DNA of 64,000 nt from Planoprotostelium fungivorum. Taxonomy: Eukaryota; Evosea; Variosea; Cavosteliida; Cavosteliaceae. The stretch spans positions 1-64,000 of the forward strand of contig MDYQ01000812.1 in assembly GCA_003024175.1 (NCBI GenBank), written 5' to 3'. The number at the start of each line of letters is the position of its first letter. Positions within the stretch are counted from its first letter, which is position 1. Below are positions 3,470-56,585 of this stretch, one piece after another. The position numbers and the translations under genes were made by a program. The notes under the pieces are model-generated. The model did no database searches. It worked only from the letters and a program-made list of their open reading frames with translations, and had not been told where the DNA came from.

Positions 3470-4375
3470 ATGAAATTGCCTTTTATCTGTCTCTGAATAT
3501 ACTCCCGCCTTGTGGAAATTTTTTAGGGTGGTGGGAGTGATGGATATCAAAAAGCATTCTTCATCACATCCCACTCCAATGACAAAACGGAAGGGGTGTG
3601 ACCAGATTAAGAACACTCCAGAGGAGCTTCTTCTGGTCATGTGGAGACACATGACTCCTTCTGGTAAAAAGTTAGAAGGTAATGATGCTGGCCCTCAAAG
3701 AGAAAAACACGCATTATGGAATTGGACCCGCACCGTGAGAGAAAAAACCATGTTGCAGAACATCAACAATCATGCCGTGTGCATTTGGCTTCAAAGAACA
3801 GAGAGGTCCAAACATGAGGTGAGTGCACAGCATGCAAAGAGGTCTGACAAGAACAGACCAGTGTTCTTGGCTGGTTTCGACTTGTTTGCCAAGATCAAGT
3901 GCAACATACCGTTAACTGGCTGCATTTCAAGACGGGACATGGTGGTCGAGACATGATGTATTATATGGCTATCAGCCTTCGCCTCTATTGGCCAGGTGCT
4001 TGTCGATTGTGATTTGGTGTCTAATTCATCCAGGTATGAAGGAGGATCTCACCGGAGCGGGTCATTCATGTTCCGTCTGCAGATTGAAGGTCAATTTCAT
4101 CTATCGGCTACCGTTGAACAATATAATCGACTCAGAACCTCTGCAGAGAGGTATTATTGATGTGACGTACCTACCTCCATACGATGATCAAGATGAAGAC
4201 GGCCATCACTGCTGGCAATACCTCATTGTTATGGTGGATCACTTCACGAAGATGGCTTGGGCAAAGCCAGCAGAGCATCGCAACGCAGCCACCATTGTGA
4301 CATTTCTAGAAGAACTCCGAGACGAAGGGATCATCTTTCAGATCTACCACAGTGACAACCTACAACTTCAGCAAG
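3470..4375 (+). mobile_element. Retroelement integrase fossil (Ty3-like), broken
   Basis: Forward-strand reading gives an H2C2-type integrase zinc-finger remnant (HGGRDMMYY...LRLYWPG) near 3930-4000. A Ty3-type integrase core follows, with 'VDHFTKMAWAKP' near 4230 and 'YHSDN' near 4345. The upstream part (3510-3956) is not recognised and is placed in the element only because it is contiguous. Several breaks are present and no LTRs were found. A Ginger-type DNA transposon with a related integrase cannot be excluded by eye. Confidence 0.65.
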
Positions 4376-4558
4376 AGGACCCTCAAGGACTTCAAGAAGC
4401 AGATGGAAGAGCACGAAGAAGCCAGGAAGGAGGAGAGGGAGAGGGAAGAAGCGGCCAGGAGAGAAGAGGAGGCCAGGAGAAGACCTTTCCTCTTTGGAAG
4501 AAAGAAGCAGTTCCCTCCTCAGGATGACCCTGCCTCCAAGAGACAGAGGAAGGAGTAA
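4352..4558 (+). CDS. Orphan 3' exon of an unrecognised host protein (K/E/R-rich tail)
   Basis: In a frame different from the integrase core, about 60 codons run to a TAA at 4556-4558. They encode a charged helix (DFKKQMEEHEEARKEE...) followed by a basic tail ending SKRQRKE. Codons favour C or G at third positions, as in the host genes of this window and unlike the adjacent fossil. A possible splice acceptor (...CTACAACTTCAG) lies at about 4371. The simplest reading is the last exon of a host gene whose upstream exons are missing or displaced by the neighbouring element. The family is not recognised; nuclear location is guessed only from the basic tail. Confidence 0.4.
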   Translation: MTTYNFSKRTLKDFKKQMEEHEEARKEEREREEAARREEEARRRPFLFGRKKQFPPQDDPASKRQRKE

Positions 4559-6283: not shown

Positions 6284-9200
6284 ATGAACGTCTTCACCAG
6301 ACGTGAACCCGTGGCAGAGAGAAGGTAATTGAATCCTGTCCGTCCAACAAATGGTGATCATTGATTGATGTGATTTCAGGGAGCGTCTCAATGAAGATGC
6401 ACCCCGTATTGTCAGAAAGGATAGAGGAGATCACTACAAGAATGATAATCCCAAAAGGAAGGGACCTAATGCAAAGGTAGAGCCCGCAAAGAAGAGAAGG
6501 CTGGACAAAGAGAAAAAGTCCAAAACCATTCTTCAGGCCAACAACAAAAACTCAGTACCCGATGAGATGGAAAAGAAGGAGACGATCAAAATAACAGGAC
6601 TATTTTCACCCATAGGTATGGTTGGACAGGTCAGCAGCGGTGTTCCCTTCATTCTTCGCTCCAAAACTCTCACTTTATCGATTGGAAGGTGAGAATTTTG
6701 AAGATTGGACATAATGATGATTCGACAATGATTCACATCACGTTCGAGATGTGCATCAAGGAAGAGACTGAAACGAACAGGTCTCTTCAAGTTCGAAACC
6801 TGGAAAAACTGGCGGTGGTAGGAACGAGCCCTCTCTTGCCCGCTGACATCACTTGCATGGAGCAATCTTCGACTCACGGACTGATCGTGGCCGCTGGACC
6901 CATCCTCTACAACATCAAGACTAATTTGATCGTTCGACAGTCGGAACCTCACGTCTCCGGCTTCCTTCAGGTGTTCAACCATGTCATCGAAATGGACTGA
7001 AATCTCTCAGTTACTTCTCCTTGGACCATACTGTGTCAGCATCAGTGAGGGACAGACGAACGCACTGCTCTGGTCTCCCAAGTTGAAGGCCGCGGACAGG
7101 ATCAAATTCGACCCCAACTTCCAGCCCACTTGTATGCTCCATCCACCCACCTACATGAACAAGGTTCTCTTCGCTTCTGCCAATGGAGGTCTTCAGCTAT
7201 GGAACATCGTCACTCGCACCCTCATCTACAAGTGATCTCCCTCATCTCTCCTACGATCACTGTTCAGAACCTACTTCTATTCAGTATTGAAATGTACGTA
7301 CAGATTCCAGAACGTATTGAAAGAGGAGAAGGCAGATTACGGAGAGAGAAGTACGGCGGAGAGATTGACCACGAGTCAACTGTTGGGCACCCACAAAGAG
7401 GAAAAGAGAAACGTGAGTGGGAGGGAGAGACCGAGTTGACGTGGAACAGATGAAGATCACTTGCATGGCATCTTCGGGTGTGCTGGATGTCGTTGCCATC
7501 GGGTTCTCGGATGGATCCATCGTGGTGCATCATCTGAAGAAGGACGCTACCATCGTCAGATTCCATCAAGTGGAGGGTGAAGTCACCACTCTGTCTTTTC
7601 GATTGGGTGAGTTATCCTCTGTTCATCACATCATCAGAAGAATCGAACATCAGAACATGATGATCACCGACATCACGAACGAGAAGAGAAATCCATACAT
7701 TCATTGTGATACGATGAATGAGACGAAAAGGAAAGAACTGATGGAAACAGGAGGAGAGGCACTTCTGGCATCAGGGACGACGAAGGGAAGTATTGTCATC
7801 TGGGATCTGGACAAGAAATGCGTGAGGAACATCGTGCAGAACGCTCACCAGAGTCCATCGGGTGAACTGGGCTCCGTGACGAGCATTCGATTCCTCCCCG
7901 GTCAGCCCATCATGTACACCACTGCGTTCGATAATTCCATCAAGTGCTGGATCTTTGATAGTCCGGACGGAAAGTGCAGGCTGTTCAAAGAGGCTTCCGG
8001 CCACAGTGCTCCCATCGAGGAGATCAAGTGGTATGACGGGGAAAACCCGGGAGTCATCTCTTCTTCAAAGGACATGAGTCTCCGCCTCCACTCTCAGCGT
8101 AACGTTCACCAGAAGATCTTCTTCGGTCCCGGTTCGAAATACGCATTGGAGAGCAGTGCTCACGTGAGATTTCATCGAAATTCGAGAGTGACACGGAACA
8201 GGTTCGGAAGATTCCCCCCATCGCAAAGTTTGATTTCAGCGTGAGAACGGAAGACAGATGGCCCAGTGTGGTGGCTCTCCACGAAGACAGTAACGTACTC
8301 AGAACGTGGGACATCCTTCACATGAACGCGGGAAAACATCAGCTGCCCGTACACACGACCCCCACTGTGCGTATTGTACGTTTGTAGATAGGCTGAATGG
8401 AGACAGACCGTGGCCGTGAGTCTGTGTGGAAACTTTGCTTTCGTGGGGCTTGTCGATGGCAGAGTGAAGCGATTCAACATCCAGTCGGGGAAATACAGAA
8501 ACGATTACAGCATCTCGAAACGACCGGGTCACAGTGCCCCCGTGACTGGAATCTCTTCGGACACCATGAACGACAAGTTGATCACATGCAGCATCGATGG
8601 TACCATCAAGTTTTGGGATCTGCACTCGGGTGATCTGAAGCACGTCATCGAGGTGTGCATCGAATCTCTCTCACGATCGTATCTTTCACACTGCATCCAT
8701 AGAGTGTCTTTCATACAGCATCCATAGATGATCATTCATGATGTGAATCGATGATGAATGATGCGCAGGTGAACGAGCCGATATCGAGCATGTACTTCCA
8801 CAAGGGAAACGAATTACTCGCCGTCGTCTGTGACGATCTCAACATTCGAATCTACGACATCCAGACACGCAATCTCGTTCGTCTCTTGGGCGGTAACAAG
8901 AGCCAGATCACCAGCATGGTGAGTCACACATCGTGAAGCTGTTCTCACCTTTCTTCAGGTGATGTCACCCGATGGAAGACTGATCATCAGCGGCTCGGCC
9001 GACAACACCATCCGAACCTGGGACATTCCATCGGGCAAATTAGTCGACATCTTCTCGGTCGATTCACCCGTGGTGTCCATGTGTTTCAATCCTTCTGGTT
9101 CACGCCTCGTCACTGCTCATTCGGGTTCCTCTCATCTCCTCTTATGGTGATCCATCTCTCTCCCTCACCGTTGACTCACTCTGTTCAGGGTGAATCTGTT

Positions 9201-21053: not shown

Positions 21054-22854
21054 AATGAAGGTACAACTGCTCATCCTCGCCCTCTTGGCTCTCGTCTTTG
21101 GACAAAACAACGGCACTACCAACGGCACCACCACCACTAACGGCACTGATTACCACTATGCTTCCTTCGTCAACGATAACTACGTCCTCAACTTTGCTCT
21201 CACTCTCGAAAACTTCGAAGCCGCCATGTACGCACGTGCCGTCAGCAGGTGATCATCATCAGATCACCACCACATCACTATCACATCCAACACGCACCAT
21301 GTCACGCCCTACATCGTCACCTAACCCCCTCCAGTTTCAATTCTTCCTCCTTCACCGCAGCCGGCCTGAACAGCACGACCTACAGCTACATCCAGACTCT
21401 CGCCAGTCAGGAAGCCGCTCACGCCTCGGCCATCAACTACACCCTCACCTCCAGAGGTTACCCCTCCGTTCAGCCTTGCGTCTACAACTTCCCCCAGGGT
21501 ATCTACAACAACGTCAGGTCCTTCCTCTCCTTCGCCGCACGCGTCGAACAGATCGGTGTCTCCGCTTACGTTGGAGCAGTTCCTTACATCAGCGATCCCG
21601 CCATATTAGAATACGCAGCCACCATAGCCACCGTGGAGGCCAGGCATTCGGCTTATCTCTACGCTCTCGATGGACAGTCTCCCTTTCCCAACGGAACCGA
21701 GCCCAGTCTGACGCCCACCGCTGTATACAACTCGGTGAGGGCTTACCTGGGCAACTGTCCCGCCACGGTATTGAACACATCTTACAATGGTACGGTCAGA
21801 GTCAACTCGAGCGAGCCCGTCTTCCCTCAGTACGCCAACGTCACTCGTCAGCTCAATTCCACCTATGCCGCCTCCACTCCCAACTCGGTCAACATCTCCG
21901 ATGCTGCCAGGGTGAGTTGTATCATCATCCTGGAGATTGACGATGAGACAGTTGAATGATGATCGCATTCTGAATCTAGCACTGTCCGTGGAGACCTTCT
22001 GCACTTACTTCTACAACACTTCTCTCTTCGGTGGTCCCATCAACGCCTCCGCATTCACCGCTGCGGGTTACAATGGAGACGCCCTCTACAACTATTACGT
22101 CACCATCTACCAACAGGAAGTGGCTCACGTTCAGGCCTTACGCATGGTACTCTCCTCCAGAGGTTCCACTTACGTACAGCCCTGCAACTACACCTTCCCC
22201 GCCACCGTCCGGATTGTAACCGAGTTCATTCGCTTGTCCCAAATCTTCGAGCTGGTCGGAGTTCGAGCTTACGATGGAACCATCTCTCTCATCTCGGAGA
22301 GTAGCCTTGCGGCCACTGCCGCTGCCGTGGAGGGCAGGCACTCTGCCTTCGTCTACAACCTGACGGGTCTGAGTCCATTCCCCAACGTGACGGACACACC
22401 TGCGACTCCAGCTGAGGTCATCGCTGCGGTGAGTCGTGTTGTCGTGGGAGAATTCTCATTGTTGAATCAGATCACACCTTACATCAGTAGCTGTCCCACT
22501 CCGAATGTGGAGGCCATCAGCAACCAGAGCATCTCGACTCTCAATCTCACCCTTCCTACCAACTTGGACTATTTCAACCAGTTCAACCAGACCTTGGCCA
22601 ACACCACTCCCAGCGGTGCTGCCGTCATCATTCCCGTCGCGAACGCAACGAACAGCTCTGGAACCAACGGCAGCCGCACCAACTCGAACGGCTCTGGCTC
22701 GACCAACTCGGTCTCAACTCCCGTTGGTTCTGTAGATTCTGCCTCTGAGACGTTCACCACGAACGGAAACTCTGGAGGTTCCATGTCGGGTGATGCCACC
22801 GTCCTCACTGGTGCCATCTTCCTCTCGGTCTCGGTCGCTGCCATGACTCTATAA
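21054..22854 (+). CDS. Secreted or GPI-anchored protein with two tandem ferritin-like domains
   Basis: MKVQLLILALLALVFGQ is a classical signal peptide. Two homologous ferritin-like modules of the Rds1/DUF4439-like type follow. The first spans 'DNYVLNFALTLENFEAAMY' to about 21720; the second spans 'DDRILNLALSVETFCTYFY' to about 22420. In each, helix pairs carry E...E-x-x-H type residues: 'QEAAHASAINY' and 'VEARHSAYLYAL' in the first, 'QEVAHVQALRM' and 'VEGRHSAFVYNL' in the second. A possible metal site is therefore kept in both. Many N-glycosylation sequons and a Ser/Thr/Gly-rich stalk precede a hydrophobic C-terminus (TGAIFLSVSVAAMTL), which fits a GPI anchor. Two introns are clear (about 21249-21332 and 21913-21950). 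Each module is bounded by an intron, suggesting internal duplication. Such proteins are known in fungi as stress- or sexual-development-linked cell-surface proteins. Confidence 0.85.
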
Positions 22855-34761: not shown

Positions 34762-35760
34762 TTAGAATCCTGCGTAGCTTCTGGCGGCCTTGACGGCGTC
34801 GAGAGGGCCGAATCCCTTGGTCCATCCCTTTCCTCTTCCCTTGGATGCCTCTCTGTTCATGTCTCTGATCTCAAAGAACAGACTTCCGTCGTATACTTTT
34901 CTCATGTCTTCCTTCTCCACGACACCTACATCGTGTCATCGGGCGCTGCATGATGTTGGGGCTCACCGTCTTGGTCTCTGCAGAGGAGGTAGGTCGTTCC
35001 GAATTCGAAGAAGAGGGCGAACCATCCAAAGGGGTCCATGATGATGCGGTAGCCAGACATGGCAGCCCAGATCTCGGTCCAGGTGAGTCCTCCCTGTGGG
35101 GTTTCAATCATTTGATCCGTTGTAGATGGATGTGGTCTCACCTTGTAATCACGGTCGTACTTGGTGAAGATGTCTTCGAACTTGGAGGGTAAGAATCTTC
35201 CCTCGTTGTCAAAGGTGGCAGAGTCTGAACCGTGCTTGGCCTTGTGCATGGAAGGAACCTATCGAGTATGAGTTGATGGATCTCATTCGATTAAGTTCTC
35301 ACCAAGAGACGGAAGAAAGGGTCTGGCAGGTAGGATTTGGCCAGTCCAGTGGGGTATGAGAAGGTGGCGTGGATGATCACAACGGCGATGAGAGAGAAGA
35401 TGGGGTTGAATCCGAGGTCTCTGAATCCCTTGTATGTGTCTGAGGGCCAGATGACACCGTCGTTATCTTGGTCCCAGAAGATGACGTGCTGCTGGAGGAC
35501 AGTCTTGTCCTTGTTCTTCTCGGCGTATGCCTCAGATCCGTGGGGCTTCTCCTCTGTGGCTGCCTGGTAGACTCTGGGGACAGCTGATATGAACATCAGT
35601 ATGGAGGATCACCGAGAAGAGAAGCTGGAAGAAGGTCTAACGACTCACCTGGGTCTTGCATGGTGAATTTGGTGGCTGGCTTGCGATCGACGGTGACGCT
35701 GGCACCAGTCGATGTGACCTCGATGGGTTCTCTCCTTGGCTCTCTTCCGCGTTGGCTCAT
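34762..35760 (-). CDS. Caleosin (lipid-droplet EF-hand peroxygenase)
   Basis: Caleosins are Ca2+-binding heme proteins of lipid droplets and ER; plant and fungal members have peroxygenase activity. The start MSQRGREPRREPIEV is at 35760. An EF-hand loop, 'FWDQDNDGVIWPSDTYKGF', is followed by a hydrophobic hairpin with the proline-knot region (SLIAVVIIHATFSYPTG). 'HGSDSATFDNEGRFLPSKFE' and 'LTWTEIWAAMSGYRIIMDP' follow, then 'FGWFALFFEFGTTYLL' and a C-terminal 'GRGKGWTKGFGPLDAVKAA' ending RSYAGF at TAA 34762-34764. All family blocks are in order. Four short introns interrupt the gene; one (about 35100-35143) carries the recurrent word CATCTACAACG. With the DGAT1-like gene at 43 kb, it indicates neutral-lipid storage. 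Confidence 0.96.
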
Positions 35761-35986: not shown

Positions 35987-38900
35987 CTACTCCTCTTCAT
36001 ATTTCTCCTCCTCTCCTTCTTCTTCCGAAGAGTGTGAAACCTTCTTCCTCTTTGCCGTCAGCTCTTTGATCTTCTTCGCCTTCTCCTCCACCGTCTCGCT
36101 CTCTTCTCTCTTCCTCTTCTGTTCCTTCTTCTGTTCCTCTTCAGTTCTCTCTCCATCTTGCAAGTGACGAAGACATGCATGAGATAGAGGAGATACATGA
36201 GATAGAAGATATGGAGATGAAGAGATAGAAGAGGCCCACCTTGTTTGGACTGCTTGTGTCCTCCTTCTTCTTCTTGTTCTTGATGAGGACGGTGTCGTTC
36301 TTCCCTCTCTGCTTCTCATCGATGTCAGGGAGCAGTTCCGTCCTCGCTTTCGGTGTCTTTGCCTTTCCTGGTGTGTTTCCCCTTCCCTGTCTCTCTCAGT
36401 CTCTCTCTCCTCTGTCTCTTCTTCTCTCTCTCTTCCTCTTCTCACCTTTGGAAACAGCCCTTCGAAGCTCTCGTCTCTCTCCTCCTCTCCCTCTCCTTCT
36501 TCCTCTTCAAACAGATCGTCTTGGTGTTGTTTGTTCTTCTGCTCACAGTCACATCTATCCATAGATGGATGTCTATCGATGTCTATGCATGGATGTCTAA
36601 AGATAGTTGTCTATGAATAAATGTCTATCGATGGATATCTATGAATGGATGACTGTCTTCACCTTCTGTTCTAGAGCTCTCAACTTTGCACGGTCCGTCT
36701 TCGTACCGTGAAACAATTTACCGTCTTTCGTCTTTCGAAAGGGTTGGATCTGTCCCTGTCACTCTCCCTTCCATCCATTGCCTCTCACCGTTTTCTCCTT
36801 CTTCGTCTTCGATGTCTTGGTCTTTGGTGATTGTAGATCGAACCACTTGTCTCTGCACTCCTCCTCGCTCTTCCCTTCCACTCTTCCACTCACTTCCCGC
36901 CAAAATCGATCCGATCCTGGGTGGGGGCAGTCTCGAACGGCCACAGACAGTTGTTTCATTTGCTGTTCTCCTTCACTCTCCTTCTCTCTTCTATCCTCTC
37001 ACCCCTTCGCTCCATTCTTCTTCTTCTCCTTCTCCCTCTTCTTCCTCTGATTCATCCTTCTTTGTCTGTTTCTCTATGACTCTCTCCTCCTCTTCTCTCT
37101 TCTCACCTTCTTCTTCTCTTCCTTCTTCTTCTCTTCAAACTCTTCCTCGTTGTCTTCTTCACTTCTCTTCCTCTTCTTCTGTGGATCGTCAGGTGAGCTT
37201 CTCCTTCCATCTTCACCTTCTCCTTCTCTGTCCCCCGGTCTCCCACTCGCCACGATGAATTGGCCTCCTTCGCCTTCTGTGCTCTACCCTCTTTCTTCTT
37301 TTGACTCTTCTACAATTCATTGTTATTCCACATCAATCGAAATGACATATTCCTGAAGAGTGTATGAAATAGAAGATAATCCACCTTCTCTTGATCTTTC
37401 TTGAACCATTCTACGTATTCTTGGTTCATCCCTGTCTCAGGTACCCAACTGTTCTCTGAATCATCATAACTGTATGTGTCAGTCTTCACCATTGTGTCAT
37501 CTCACCCTTTCCACGAGACAAAGAATTGCCATTGTCCACGGATGAACTTGTGTGTGATGATCTGTCGTACAATGAGAACATCATCTACAACGAGACACGA
37601 ACCTGATCGATCGTATACACCTCTGGCGTTCTAAAAATAGATCAGCATCATCTCACTCTCAGTGACTCACTCTTTCGGCTCACTCTCGTCGAGATTCTTC
37701 TTGGCTGTACGATTCAGTCATCGTGACGAACGACAGACTCACTCTCACTATCACTGATGTACTGATTTCCTTCACTCAACTTTCTCGTCCTGCATCACGT
37801 CAATTGTACGTTCAATACATTGAATGGCACACCTTCCAGAGAGGGGAGTGCAGGTGGAATCGGTCTTGGGTGACTTCCTTGACTGAGTACTACTCTTCTG
37901 TGCACTCTTCTGTGCACTCTTCTGTGCACTCTTCTGTGCACTCGATTTCTTCTTGCTGTTGGGTGTGATACTCTTGCAGTTGGATGAGTCCCAGTATTGA
38001 ACGGGGGAGAAGATCTTGCGTCTGGGAGGGTGAGTGATGGTGGTGATATCATCTCACCCCTTCTGTGATGTGTTGTATTCCTCCAGGAAGAACGGACTCT
38101 TTGGGTCTTTCCATGTCTTCTCCTTCTTCAGGAATCGATCTCTCTTCCCCTGTTTCCACTCTTCCTCTTCTTCCTCTTCTACCTCTCCTTCCTCTTCTAC
38201 CTCTTCTACCTCTTCTACCTCTGCTTCCTCTTCTTCCTCTGCTTCCTCTTCTTCCTCTGCTTCCTCTTCTTCCTCCTCTTCTTCCTTCTTCTTTTGTGCT
38301 CTTTTTCCGCTCTTACCCTTTGCTTTCTTCTTCAACTTCTCCTCCTGCTCTTCTTCCTCTTCTTTCTTTTTCACTGGAGCCTTTTGTTGATTTTTCCTGG
38401 GCCTTCCTCTAGGCCTCTTCGGTTTCTCCTCCTTCTCTTCTTCTCTCTCTTCTTCTTCCTTCTCTTCTTCCTTCTCTTCTTCCTTCTCTTCTTCCTTCTC
38501 TTCTTCCTCCACTGGAGTCTTTTGTTGCTTCGATCCCTTCCTGGGTCTTCCTCTGGTCCTCTTCGGTTTCTCCTTCTTCTCTTCTTTCTCTTCCTTCTCC
38601 TCTTCTTCCTTTTTCGTTGGAGCCTTTTGTTGATTTGATTCCTTCCTCGGTCTTCCTCTAGGCCTCTTCGGTTTCTCCTCCTTCTCCTCCTTCTCTTCTT
38701 CCTTCTCTTCCTCCTCCACTGGAGTCTTCTGTCGTTTCGATCCCTTCCTGGGTCTTCCTCTGGTCTTCGGTGTCTCCACTTGCTCTTCTTCCTTCGGTGG
38801 TGTACTCTTCCTTCCTCTGCCCCTCGTCGGTTTCTTCTCTTCTCCCTCCTTCTCCTTTTCTCTCTCCTCCCTCTCTTTCTCTCCTCTCTCCTCCCTCTCT

Positions 38901-41900
38901 TTCTCTCCTCTCTCCTCCCTCTCTTTCTCTCCTCTCTCCTCCCTCTCTTTCTCTCCTCTCTCCTCCCCCTCTTTCTCTCCTCTCTCCTCCCTCTCTTTCT
39001 CTCCTCTCTCCTTCTCTTCCTCCTCCCTCTGCATCTCATACTCTTCGAACAACTACCCCGGTCAATGGTCCCCCCTCCTTCACCTCCCTCACCTCTCTCC
39101 AATCATGGGGTAATCCATTCGAGAATGCTTTGACGATCTTCTGTGGGTAACTCTGCAAGGACTTCTCGTTGGGTGGCCCTCTCAGCTCGTAGATGGATCC
39201 AGAGATCGTGCGGAAGTAGTGAGAATTCAAGACCTGGAGACCGTGAGACACGTGACGGGTGACAGATGACGTCACCTCGTTCAGGCGGGAGGTGTGGTAG
39301 TGGCCCAAACAGTTGGGACGCTTCGATATGATGCAGTCGCCACGGAAACGGATTCCCTTGAGTCGAGTCTGCTCCACGGACCAATTCACGATCACTCCAT
39401 CGCATTCTTCCGCGTACTTGTCCTCTTCAGAGGATCTCGTCACCTCCTTGTCCACCTCATCTACAACGCGTCAGGGATGAAAGGTAGAATAGAAGACACA
39501 CTGGTGTAAGGAACTTCGTCGTCCTTGTCCAAGTAAGAGATCTCCGTGTCTTCGAGGTGATTCTCTCGGATCAATCGTTCCATCTCTTCTAACGGTAAGA
39601 CTCCTGTTCCATTCAGTCCTCTTTCTTCCATGAAGATCTAGATGTGTGATACTACATCGTGACATCGTGTGGAGGAGGATTAGAATTCGACTCTACCTTC
39701 CATCGATAAATCGTCATCCACTTCCATGTTCATTTTTCTGGGCTGTCTGCCGGACTGTACAACTTGTGTTCCCTGCACTCTCTCAGTATGAATAGATCTC
39801 GCATGACACCACTCACCTTCCGTCCACTCTTGACGCCTGTCGATTTCACACTGCACATTCGATTACTCTCCAGAGATGATGGCTCTGATACTCACTCGTT
39901 GGACGTCTTTGCATCTTCTTCCTTCTTTGTAGATTCATCGGGTGAACGAGGGGAGCGTGGAGGTTCATCATCCCCCGTTGTAGATGCATCCTCTGATGAT
40001 GAGTAGAGCTGACTGTTGGGAGGTGAGTTTTGCGTGGCAATCTGTGATTGTGGGGGTGAAGAGGTGCTATGTTCAACGGTGTTCTCCTCGATCTCTCTCC
40101 TCTCTTCCTTCTCTCCCTCCTCTTCTATCTTCTTTCTCTCCTTTTCCTTCTCTCCCTCCTCTTCTATCTTCTTTCTCTCCTTTTCCTTCTCTCCCTCCTT
40201 TTCTACCTGTGCTTGTTCTTCTGTCCTGTCCTCCTCTTCCTTTTGTCTCTTCTCTCTTTCCTCTCTCTTTCTCTCCTCTTCTGCTCTTCCCTTCTCTTCC
40301 TCCTCTCTCTTCTTCCCCTCTTCCATCTTCTTTGTCTCCTCCTCTTCTATCTTCTTTGTCTCCTCTTCTGCTTGCTCCTGTTCTATCCTCTTCCTCTCTT
40401 CTTCTTCCTGTCTCTTCTTCTCCTCTTCCTCTATCCTCTTCTTCTCCTCTTCTGCTTGCTCTTCTTCCATCCTTTTCTTCTCTTCTTTGAGTCTCTTCTC
40501 TTCTTCCTTCTGTTTCTCCTCTTCTTGTTTCTTCCTCTTCTCCTCCTCTCTCTCCTCCCTCTTCCTCTCCTCCGCTGCTCTCTTCTCTTCCTCTATCCTC
40601 TTCTCCTCTTCCACTCTTCTCTGCTGTTCTCTCATTCTGGCAATGTACTTCTCCTCTCTCTCTCTTTCCCTCTTCTTCTTCTCCTCCTCCTCTGTCTTCT
40701 TCCTCTCTTCCTCCTCTCTTCTCTCCCTCTCCTGTTCTTCCTCTCTCTTTCTCTCCTCTTCCTCGGCTTTCTTTCTCTCCTCTTCCCTCTTCTGTTCCTC
40801 CTCTCTCTGTCTCCTCTGCTCCTGTGCATCTCATCAATCTCCCTCCCTTCATCACATTCATTCCACAGAGGACAGTCTCCCTGAACGATCCATCATTCGA
40901 CACTCACCATGGCAGCATCCACTTTGGGGTAAGGAGAAGCCAAAGTGTTTCGAACAGGACGGAAAGATCTGATCGAGTCAGAGAGGCCGTCACGGGGGCT
41001 CACATGTTGGCCACTGCCGCATGCTGTGTGTCCGATGTGGGTTGAGGGCGTGGTGATCTGAGAACTCTCAGAAGAGAAGGAAGGGAGAGTCTTCACCTGG
41101 CTGTACGAGGCGAATTGAATAGATCCTTGTTCTGGTATATGCTCTGTTTCACTGCGACAGGCTCGGGAGACTGTGAAGAGGTGAGTGTCCCGTTTCACGA
41201 TGAGGTGTGTTCGAATGACTCACACGATGGGTCAGGAATGGGTTGTCCTGAAGATGAGATTAGAAGATGGATGTGAGAGATCTCTCACCGGTCGGATTCT
41301 GTGTGTGGATCCTGGTGCAATGGGCACTGGGAATAGGTTCCCTTGACCAATTGTTCGATTCGATTGCAGAGGTGTATTGGGTGTCGTAGAGAATGCTGTT
41401 GAAGTTAACGGTGAACGATTACAGGAAAGGCCGTAATTACCTGATTTCACCTCGGTCTGTGGAGTGTGTGGAGAGGTAATTTGAACATTGGGTGTCCCTG
41501 AAACAATGGGGGTGGTCGGTTTCTGAGGTGTTCTCGTTCGTGCCCCTGTGAAATGTAAACTCAGATCTTGAAAGTCATTAAGATGGAAGATCTCACTGGA
41601 TGGCTTCTCGCCAACATAGATGGTCTCTTCCCCTTCTGCCTTCTGTTTGTTCAAGTGAGAGACGAGTACCTCCAGTTCCGCCCTCGATTTATGAGGACCA
41701 ACAGCTACAATAGAATTAAGAGAATCGTTATGGAATGAAACGCACTGTGTTGAGAAGTTCGTGACATGACTTCCACCTGATACTGTTTGAAAGGTCAAAC
41801 CTGTTCTGAGACGCTCTATTGATTACAGACACAATATATTCAACTGTGATTGTAAGAAATAAGGGCGATTTCGTCAGTGATGGATCGCATGCATTAACGG

Positions 41901-41910
41901 CTACTGGCAT
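35987..41910 (-). CDS. KNL2/M18BP1-like centromere protein: SANTA, AT-hooks, CENP-C-like motif, chromodomain, SANT
   Basis: M18BP1/KNL2 proteins recruit the machinery that deposits CENP-A at centromeres. In order on the minus strand: an N-terminus near MPVAVNACDP; a 250-residue E/K/R helix (40080-40835); a SANTA domain (39080-39440: 'VNWSVEQTRLKGIRFRG', 'RTISGSIYELRGPPN', 'NGLPHDW'). Then come K/E repeats with five AT-hook-like cores (GRGRKS, GRPRK x4; 38370-38840) and a CENP-C-like motif (GRKIFSPVQYW, about 38000). A chromodomain follows (37390-37630: 'EVYTIDQIITHKFIRGQWQ', 'FFVSWKG', 'YDDSENSWVPE'). Last are a SANT/Myb repeat (36870-36970: 'MKQLSVAVRDCPHPGSDRF', 'GKSEEECRDKWF') and an acidic tail. 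Many introns. A stop frame at 37323 means the SANT part could be a second gene, but a 22-nt or longer intron would carry the frame on. SANTA plus SANT is the known M18BP1 pairing, so one gene is favoured. Confidence 0.72.
37893..37943 (+). repeat. 12-bp tandem repeat (GTGCACTCTTCT)4 inside coding sequence
   Basis: Four head-to-tail units encode KSAQ repeats on the minus strand just after the CENP-C-like motif. The identical bases suggest recent slippage expansion. Confidence 0.9.
38864..39012 (+). repeat. 24-bp tandem repeat, about six units, coding ERGEKERE on the minus strand
   Basis: Units of 24 bp (CTCTCCTCCCTCTCTTTCTC plus CCT in one phase) repeat with one or two base changes, one unit having a C for T. 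They lie within a long strand-asymmetric pyrimidine run (38150-39030). In the protein they extend a charged helix between the SANTA domain and the AT-hooks. Confidence 0.88.
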
Positions 41911-55501: not shown

Positions 55502-55605
55502 GTGCCGTCGTGCAAGCATGTCTTTGCGTTTTGCACACAATTTGTTTACAAACGGAATAATTCATTAAGGAGGAATTTTCCGATCAGATCACATCAGCAA
55601 ATAAC

Positions 55606-56585
55606 ATGGCGGACAGAAGAGCGACCAACAAGTACTACCCACCAGAATGGGACCCATCCAAGGGCTCTATCAACACCTTCGTTGGACAACATCCTCTCAG
55701 AGACCGTGCGAGGAAATTGAAGACGGAGGGTATCCTCGTGGTACGTTTCGAGATGCCTTACAATATATGGTGTGGAGGCTGCCATCAGCACATTGGAAAG
55801 GGTGTTCGATTCAATGCAGAGAAGAAGCAGGCTGGAAATTACTACTCGACGAAGATATGGAACTTTGGAATGAAGTGTCACCTCTGCTCTCATCGCATAG
55901 AGATCGAGACCGATCCAAAGAACCACGATTACATCATCAAAGTGGGAGCCGACCGTAAAACGGAGACATGGGACAGTGCAGAGACGGGCATCATCCAATT
56001 GGAGGGCGAGGAACATGCACAGAAGATGGCAGAGGATCCATTCTTTCGTCTGGAGAATTCGGCCAAGGACGTCGAGAAGGCCAAGGAGAAAGTGCCACAA
56101 TTGGAGGACCTCATCGAATTTGCAAAGAGCAGGAGCGACACTCGAGAGATGTCCTCCATGCTGAGAGCCGACTTTAGAAAGAAACGAAAGGAGCTGGAAG
56201 ACATGGACAGACAAGGGAAGGCAATAGGTAATTCCAATCTCCATCTCATCACATGCATCATATGATGTTCATCACTGAACCATCTTCAGGCTTACCGATG
56301 CCATTATTGCCAGTATCAGAGACCGACAGAGAAGAGGCCAAGGAGGTCGTCTTTCGAAAAGATAAGAATGCCCTGGTGCAAGATTTGAAGAAGAGGAGAT
56401 TACAAGTGGCGTCGGCATCGATCTTTGGCAACGACAAGAACAACCAACTGAAGAAGACAAAGATCAACCTCTTGTCCTCCGCTCAGAAGAATCAACAACC
56501 TCTTCTCTCCCTCCTCAAGCCCAGCCGAACCGTTGTAGATAGTCAGAAGAAAGGTTTAAAAGTTTTATCCAACACAAAGACGTAA
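55606..56585 (+). CDS. CCDC130/YJU2-type splicing factor (CWC16 family)
   Basis: CWC16 family proteins (Yju2, CCDC94, CCDC130) act in the spliceosome around catalytic activation. The start MADRRATNKYYPPEWDPSK is the family N-terminus. 'GILVVRFEMPYNIWCGGCH' and 'HIGKGVRFNAEKKQAGNYY' follow. The zinc-binding Cys residues are in CGGC and 'MKCHLCSHRIEIETDP'. 'NHDYIIKVGADRKTETWD' follows, as in CCDC130. A predicted coiled coil spans about 56000-56220. One intron (about 56228-56290) precedes 'LPMPLLPVSETDREEA'. The Lys-rich C-terminus ends KVLSNTKT. Length (about 300 residues) is typical. It is divergent from the iksA-type kinase gene, with only 104 bp between starts, so the promoter is probably shared. 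Confidence 0.94.

Follow-up and report, generated by a model that had tools for sequence, protein, structure and literature searches.

The locus analysed here raises the question of whether one gene can encode a KNL2/M18BP1-like protein that also carries a chromodomain and, if so, what that chromodomain would bind and where it came from. The DNA under study (the window) comprises 64,000 nucleotides, namely bases 1-64000 of contig C20; the assembly to which it belongs has 471 contigs and a size of 36.9 Mb, and genome searches were performed on it exon by exon.

Gene model and continuity of the reading frame

The gene runs on the minus strand from position 41910 to position 35987 of the window and is spliced via short GT-AG introns into one frame, the model consisting of 29 exons, 28 GT-AG introns and 1483 amino acids in a single frame read from three minus-strand frames. 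An earlier note on this DNA had proposed that a single gene joins SANTA, AT-hooks, a CENP-C-like motif, a chromodomain and SANT, and the spliced frame of 29 exons bears this out; the residues named in that proposal are all present on the minus strand in the expected place, EVYTIDQII and GRKIF appearing only once the exons are spliced. Intron length is 35-45 nt in 19 of 28 cases, while GTGAG at the donor start and a branch-like YTNAY located 9-17 nt from the acceptor end are each found in 16 of the 28 introns.

Splice sites were ranked by a leave-one-out score, which is partly circular because the introns used for its training were chosen by eye. For introns 13-24, extending from SANTA to SANT, 12/12 acceptors were placed in the top 12% of the region's AG sites and 12/12 donors in the top 32% of its GT sites. 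The lowest scores were those of introns 1 and 11; both splice sites of intron 11 (39696-39625) score poorly, and this intron contains an ATG at 39631 that could be the start of the gene. Given the poor signals of introns 1 and 11, whatever lies upstream of 39624 may have been modelled wrongly or belong to a separate gene; the SANTA-chromo-SANT finding is unaffected by this doubt. Exons 1-11 encode a Ser/Thr/Pro-rich start followed by a long E/K/R-rich, coiled-coil-like stretch; their scanned pieces (exons 10-11 being outside the scan) returned no Pfam match, and the first 230 amino acids, where an N-terminal Mis18-binding region was looked for, are likewise without a Pfam match. The plus strand between 36001 and 40000 displays a GC skew of -0.32 and an AT skew of -0.43, a strong strand asymmetry that is attributed to the E/K-rich coding of this gene.

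Two or three adjacent genes, or alternative transcripts, might in principle take the place of one protein containing SANTA, chromodomain and SANT, and certain junctions do carry weaker signals: the donor of intron 19 reads GTTCGT and ranks at 31.5% of GT sites, that of intron 13 ranks at 19.5%, and intron 21 is longer, at 75 nt. The positions of start codons speak against such an arrangement, since the last SANTA residue is number 715 and the next ATG codons in the spliced frame are found at residue 722 (seven past SANTA), residue 1179 (past the chromodomain cage) and residue 1271 (within SANT), so that a chromodomain-only or SANT-only gene would lack an ordinary start in this frame. Between SANTA and SANT, moreover, no two successive exons are more than 75 nt apart, as compared to 226 nt between the stop codon of this gene and the point where the caleosin gene, on the same strand, is presumed to start, this being the only intergenic gap measured. 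As there is no ATG between 722 and 1179 and no exon gap above 75 nt, separate genes are considered very unlikely.

The caleosin gene lies immediately downstream (window 34926-35760, minus strand), two of its stretches scoring 88 and 98 bits in Pfam. Plus-strand genes of the window encode a WDR36/Utp21-type beta-propeller (7417-8244, 137 bits against a cut-off of 80), a Ferritin_2 protein (21180-21959, 101.8 bits) and a Saf4/Yju2-type splicing factor (55561-56265), whose best solved match is 9s2e, named probable splicing factor YJU2B. A weak integrase core match (3916-4527, plus strand; 25 bits against a cut-off of 32.6) is perhaps a mobile-element remnant.

Table 1. Coordinates of the KNL2/M18BP1-like gene, its domains and motifs (window positions), and of divergent H3 genes on other contigs
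Feature	Position	Strand	Basis or remark
Well supported portion of the KNL2/M18BP1-like gene (exons 12-29, starting shortly ahead of SANTA and ending with the stop codon)	35987..39624	-	Spliced model, profiles, splice scores
Exons 1-11, probably the N-terminal portion of that gene	39625..41910	-	Joined through weak intron 11; possibly a gene of its own
SANTA domain, exons 13-14, intron 39275-39234	39093..39395	-	Pfam PF09133, 33.3 bits; best PDB match Mis18BP1
Five AT-hook cores in E/K-rich linker	38393..38821	-	One GRGRK (38821-38807) followed by four RGRPRK cores
CENP-C/CENPC-k-type motif KGRKIFSPVQYW, exons 15-16, intron 38057-38022	37991..38062	-	Pattern match
HP1-like chromodomain, three exons, introns 37602-37562 and 37505-37470	37385..37623	-	Pfam PF00385, 34.1 bits; PDB CBX5, HP1
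SANT/Myb-like domain, exons 24-25, intron 37002-36963	36834..37020	-	Pfam Myb, 21.4 bits; best PDB match KIAA1903
Divergent H3 (L031)	C9:80388-80827	-	Own N-terminal tail, changed loop-1 by eye
Divergent H3 (L019)	C133:39370-39750	-	Own N-terminal tail, changed loop-1 by eye
Divergent H3 (L030)	C155:155095-155457	-	Own N-terminal tail, changed loop-1 by eye

SANTA, SANT, AT-hooks and the CENP-C-type motif

Profile searches for SANTA and the chromodomain, which the earlier note had suggested as checks, placed both spliced pieces above the respective Pfam thresholds (cut-off of 21 bits for SANTA, with profile positions 5-91 of 92 being covered; 25.1 bits for Chromo, with positions 1-52 of 53). 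When compared with solved structures, the SANTA piece matched Mis18-binding protein 1 best (9r6h, E 3.5e-5), the aligned region being the C-terminal half of the piece. An exon-wise profile search of the same genome returned one SANTA match, i.e. one locus, and 13 and 32 pattern-matching stretches were retrieved from viral_contigs and genome_contigs, respectively, none of which was confirmed by tblastn. The spliced SANT piece scored below the Pfam cut-off of 24.4 bits for Myb; its best solved-structure match was KIAA1903 (1wgx, E 8.8e-5), which we take to be human M18BP1, followed by Mis18-binding protein 1 (9f5w, E 6.9e-4), with other Myb-type proteins ranking lower. An initial model of this domain, which involved an unusually short 22-nt intron, was dropped, the 40-nt intron 24 giving the usual-looking start WSEGQ. 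Because two separate domains, SANTA and SANT, both match M18BP1 best among solved structures, the gene is assigned to the KNL2/M18BP1 family, and the view that it is a member which also carries a chromodomain is supported by these sequence matches. SANT and a CENPC-like motif are features of many KNL2/M18BP1 proteins, though not of all.

The AT-hook cores (AT_hook profile at 19.4 bits against a cut-off of 17.4, unspliced exon) agree with the four GRPRK cores and one GRGRKS listed beforehand. The four RGRPRK cores (window 38761-38393, minus strand) are embedded in similar E/K-rich modules spaced 34-48 residues, a spacing that suggests internal duplication.

The CENP-C-type motif contains GRKIFSPVQYW, which matches the published CENP-C core RxxxxPxxYW and retains its Arg, Tyr and Trp, the residues whose mutation is described in PMC4830207 as weakening CENP-C nucleosome binding. 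In addition, its key Arg and Trp line up with those of KRSRSGRV/LLVSPLEFW, the CENPC-k consensus of plants, in which both are required for targeting according to PMC9210943. A looser pattern, written after the motif had been seen, occurs once compared with 8e-7 occurrences expected from composition. When the motif stretch was compared by phmmer to solved structures, no CENP-C or KNL2 was recovered at E-values up to 10, and the motif is thus assigned by its pattern only. Between this motif and the chromodomain, a tandem repeat of four SAQK units is present (window about 37945-37890, minus strand).

Ligand and origin of the chromodomain

The best solved-structure matches of the chromodomain were CBX5 (2.2e-9) and HP1 (9.7e-9), to both of which it aligns without gaps from EVYT through TGMN. 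At the three aromatic cage positions, which lie in EVYTIDQ and SWKGY and align to those of HP1 and CBX5, it has Y, W and Y, corresponding to Y24, W45 and Y48 of fly HP1. Pfam listed no chromo shadow domain for any piece scanned at E-values up to 1 (exons 10-11 being outside the scan), and the protein is therefore not classed as HP1. The genome also contains, on contig C43, a chromo match of 49.4 bits and a chromo shadow match of 24.8 bits (cut-off 22.4) lying 0.7 kb apart, which are taken as one HP1-like gene, as well as Pre-SET matches on C50 (61 bits) and C251 (30.6 bits, cut-off 29.1), downstream of which SET-like stretches were recognised by eye. Canonical H3 retains TARKSTGG, hence K9; the tail of this histone (C64 and C351; L014 and L015) includes the stretch RKHVANKAARKSAVSSGGVKK, which seems unusual when set against other H3s. 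Considering that the chromodomain is HP1-like with its cage kept, and that HP1-like and Pre-SET-type matches exist in the genome, it is plausible that it acts as an H3K9me reader.

Chromodomains with similar cages nevertheless read different marks, those of the Polycomb type reading H3K27me through a similar cage, and some bind nucleic acid. The domain might thus bind H3K27me or H3K4me, the CENP-A tail, or DNA or RNA instead, merely adding affinity beside the AT-hooks, whose five cores suggest that nucleic-acid contacts count in this protein. This is regarded as unlikely, since the nearest solved structures are those of CBX5 and HP1 and since the genome contains the HP1-like and Pre-SET-type matches mentioned above.

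A distinct proposal, which is about origin and is compatible with methyl reading, holds that the chromodomain was captured from a chromovirus-kind retrotransposon and now directs KNL2 to element-rich centromeric DNA. The Chromo profile has 63 matches in the genome, and a search with the KNL2 chromodomain itself gave 28, two of which are the query; 18 of the 26 non-self matches constitute one near-identical multi-copy family (L038-L055), a finding in favour of capture. Members of this family share VSW.GY..EN.W.PE, 17 of them being 33-38% identical to the query over 39-41 amino acids and one 48% identical over 33, and several copies are located at contig ends; from their number and these positions they are probably copies of a chromovirus-type retrotransposon. 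In a small alignment the family is identical to the KNL2 chromodomain at 18/53 positions as compared to 15/54 each for fly HP1 and CBX5, which amounts to a difference of a few residues in about 50 amino acids, and C394, a locus that does not belong to the family, equals or exceeds its closeness over a shorter aligned segment (16/37). The KNL2 chromodomain furthermore possesses two introns, whereas the copies have none in the matched stretch. The identity counts do not decide between element capture and a host chromodomain; on the whole, capture is judged rather improbable.

Partner families, proposed mechanism and relation to known systems

Turning to likely partners of the KNL2/M18BP1-like protein, a Mis18-type zinc domain is encoded on C100 (39.7 bits against a cut-off of 26.6). 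Three divergent H3 genes (Table 1) may represent multiple CENP-A-like variants in one genome; they are treated as CENP-A candidates only, because the best solved-structure matches of the variant on C9, judged from the best 60 of 164, are H3s and not CENP-A. Exon-wise searches of the genome returned no match for CENP-C_C (PF11699), for which 8 of 14 control genomes gave matches, none above the cut-off, nor for Scm3, which was matched in none of the control genomes; these missing matches are weak evidence, as an exon-wise search can overlook both genes.

With regard to the host, its elongation factor 1-alpha reads DNMPWWKGPTLLEALD and is devoid of the 12-residue insertion typical of opisthokonts (animals and fungi), which makes an animal or fungal host improbable; the solved-structure matches of this protein, headed by animal and yeast-type entries, do not place the host. 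A second copy (C62:26697-26960, plus strand; L073) carries an internal deletion that removes the portion containing the insertion site. The caleosin- and Ferritin_2-type neighbours had pointed to a fungus, a reading abandoned in view of the missing insertion and of the exon-wise search of this genome, which gave no Chitin_synth_2 match. IFT57 is present, so the lineage is probably flagellated or ciliated.

The domains and their order, the single reading frame, the cage residues and several partner families in the genome were observed directly, and from these a predicted mechanism may be put forward for how the protein functions, where it localises and whether it binds histones and Mis18. CENPC-like motifs are reported to bind CENP-A nucleosomes, and the SANTA domain of Xenopus M18BP1 to bind CENP-C in metaphase (PMC9210943). 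As in these relatives, contact with CENP-C and CENP-A nucleosomes would be made through SANTA and the CENP-C-type motif, and new CENP-A loading would be licensed with the aid of a Mis18-type partner; the AT-hooks after SANTA would contribute DNA contacts. The HP1-like chromodomain, situated between the CENP-C-type motif and SANT, would recognise a methylated tail of H3 on adjacent nucleosomes, H3K9me being the likeliest mark, a contact that may either recruit the factor to the heterochromatin flanks or sense the border. The protein would thereby read centromeric and flanking heterochromatic nucleosomes together and load CENP-A at their border. We hold it to be moderately probable that the gene is a KNL2/M18BP1 orthologue whose chromodomain binds methylated H3, most likely H3K9me, with CENP-A being loaded at the border between centromere and heterochromatin. 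The more far-reaching suggestion, that in this lineage the CENP-A licensing factor itself reads H3K9me next to CENP-A nucleosomes and that new CENP-A loading depends directly on flanking, perhaps transposon-rich, heterochromatin, is offered tentatively and with some doubt.

To our knowledge, a physical link between CENP-A loading and heterochromatin is made only indirectly in other organisms, and one protein could here link silent chromatin to the site of centromere renewal. The ways in which pericentric heterochromatin promotes or restrains the loading of CENP-A are an open question with evidence in both directions (PMC7390644), and antagonism by H3K9me3 is described in PMC4906249. If a reader of methylated histones is indeed part of the licensing factor, this protein would constitute a natural experiment on the causality of the link between heterochromatin and CENP-A.

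As to novelty, the earlier account of known layouts holds for the chromodomain as a new part but not for the union of SANTA, CENPC-like motif and SANT, which is described for non-mammalian vertebrate M18BP1 (chicken, Xenopus) in PMC13294675; what is unusual is therefore confined to the chromodomain and, perhaps, the AT-hooks. The contention that no KNL2/M18BP1 with a chromodomain is known agrees with the literature searched, in which no such protein was reported, the material being mostly titles and the starts of abstracts, with most subscription papers and the eukaryotic protein databases outside its scope. The word chromodomain is absent from the main text of PMC13294675 and of PMC9210943, and PMC6981222 mentions KNL2, chromodomain and SANTA incidentally. 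Within the literature searched, the chromodomain is the new element of this KNL2/M18BP1-like protein. The occurrence of SANTA, CENP-C-type motif and a probable SANT in a probable non-opisthokont suggests that this triple layout may be old rather than an animal invention and, if the host is indeed not an opisthokont, would extend it beyond animals and their kin.

Compared to chicken and Xenopus M18BP1/KNL2, the present protein likewise unites SANTA and a CENPC-like motif with a probable SANT, and differs by its chromodomain, by linkers that are long and E/K-rich, and by its five AT-hook cores. With plant alpha-KNL2 it shares SANTA and a CENPC-k-type motif in which the targeting Arg and Trp are both kept, whereas Arabidopsis KNL2 is without SANT and is described with no mention of a chromodomain (PMC9210943). 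HP1 and CBX proteins, which provide the best solved-structure matches, have in common with it a chromodomain with three aromatic cage residues, while SANTA, the CENP-C-type motif and the probable SANT set it apart from them, as does the absence of a chromo shadow match from the pieces scanned. A related theme is offered by human M18BP1, which acts where CENP-A chromatin meets H3K9me3 made by Suv39h1 and interacts with KAT7, by which this mark is countered (PMC4906249); there, an interacting acetyltransferase removes H3K9me3, whereas here a putative histone reader is located inside the protein itself.
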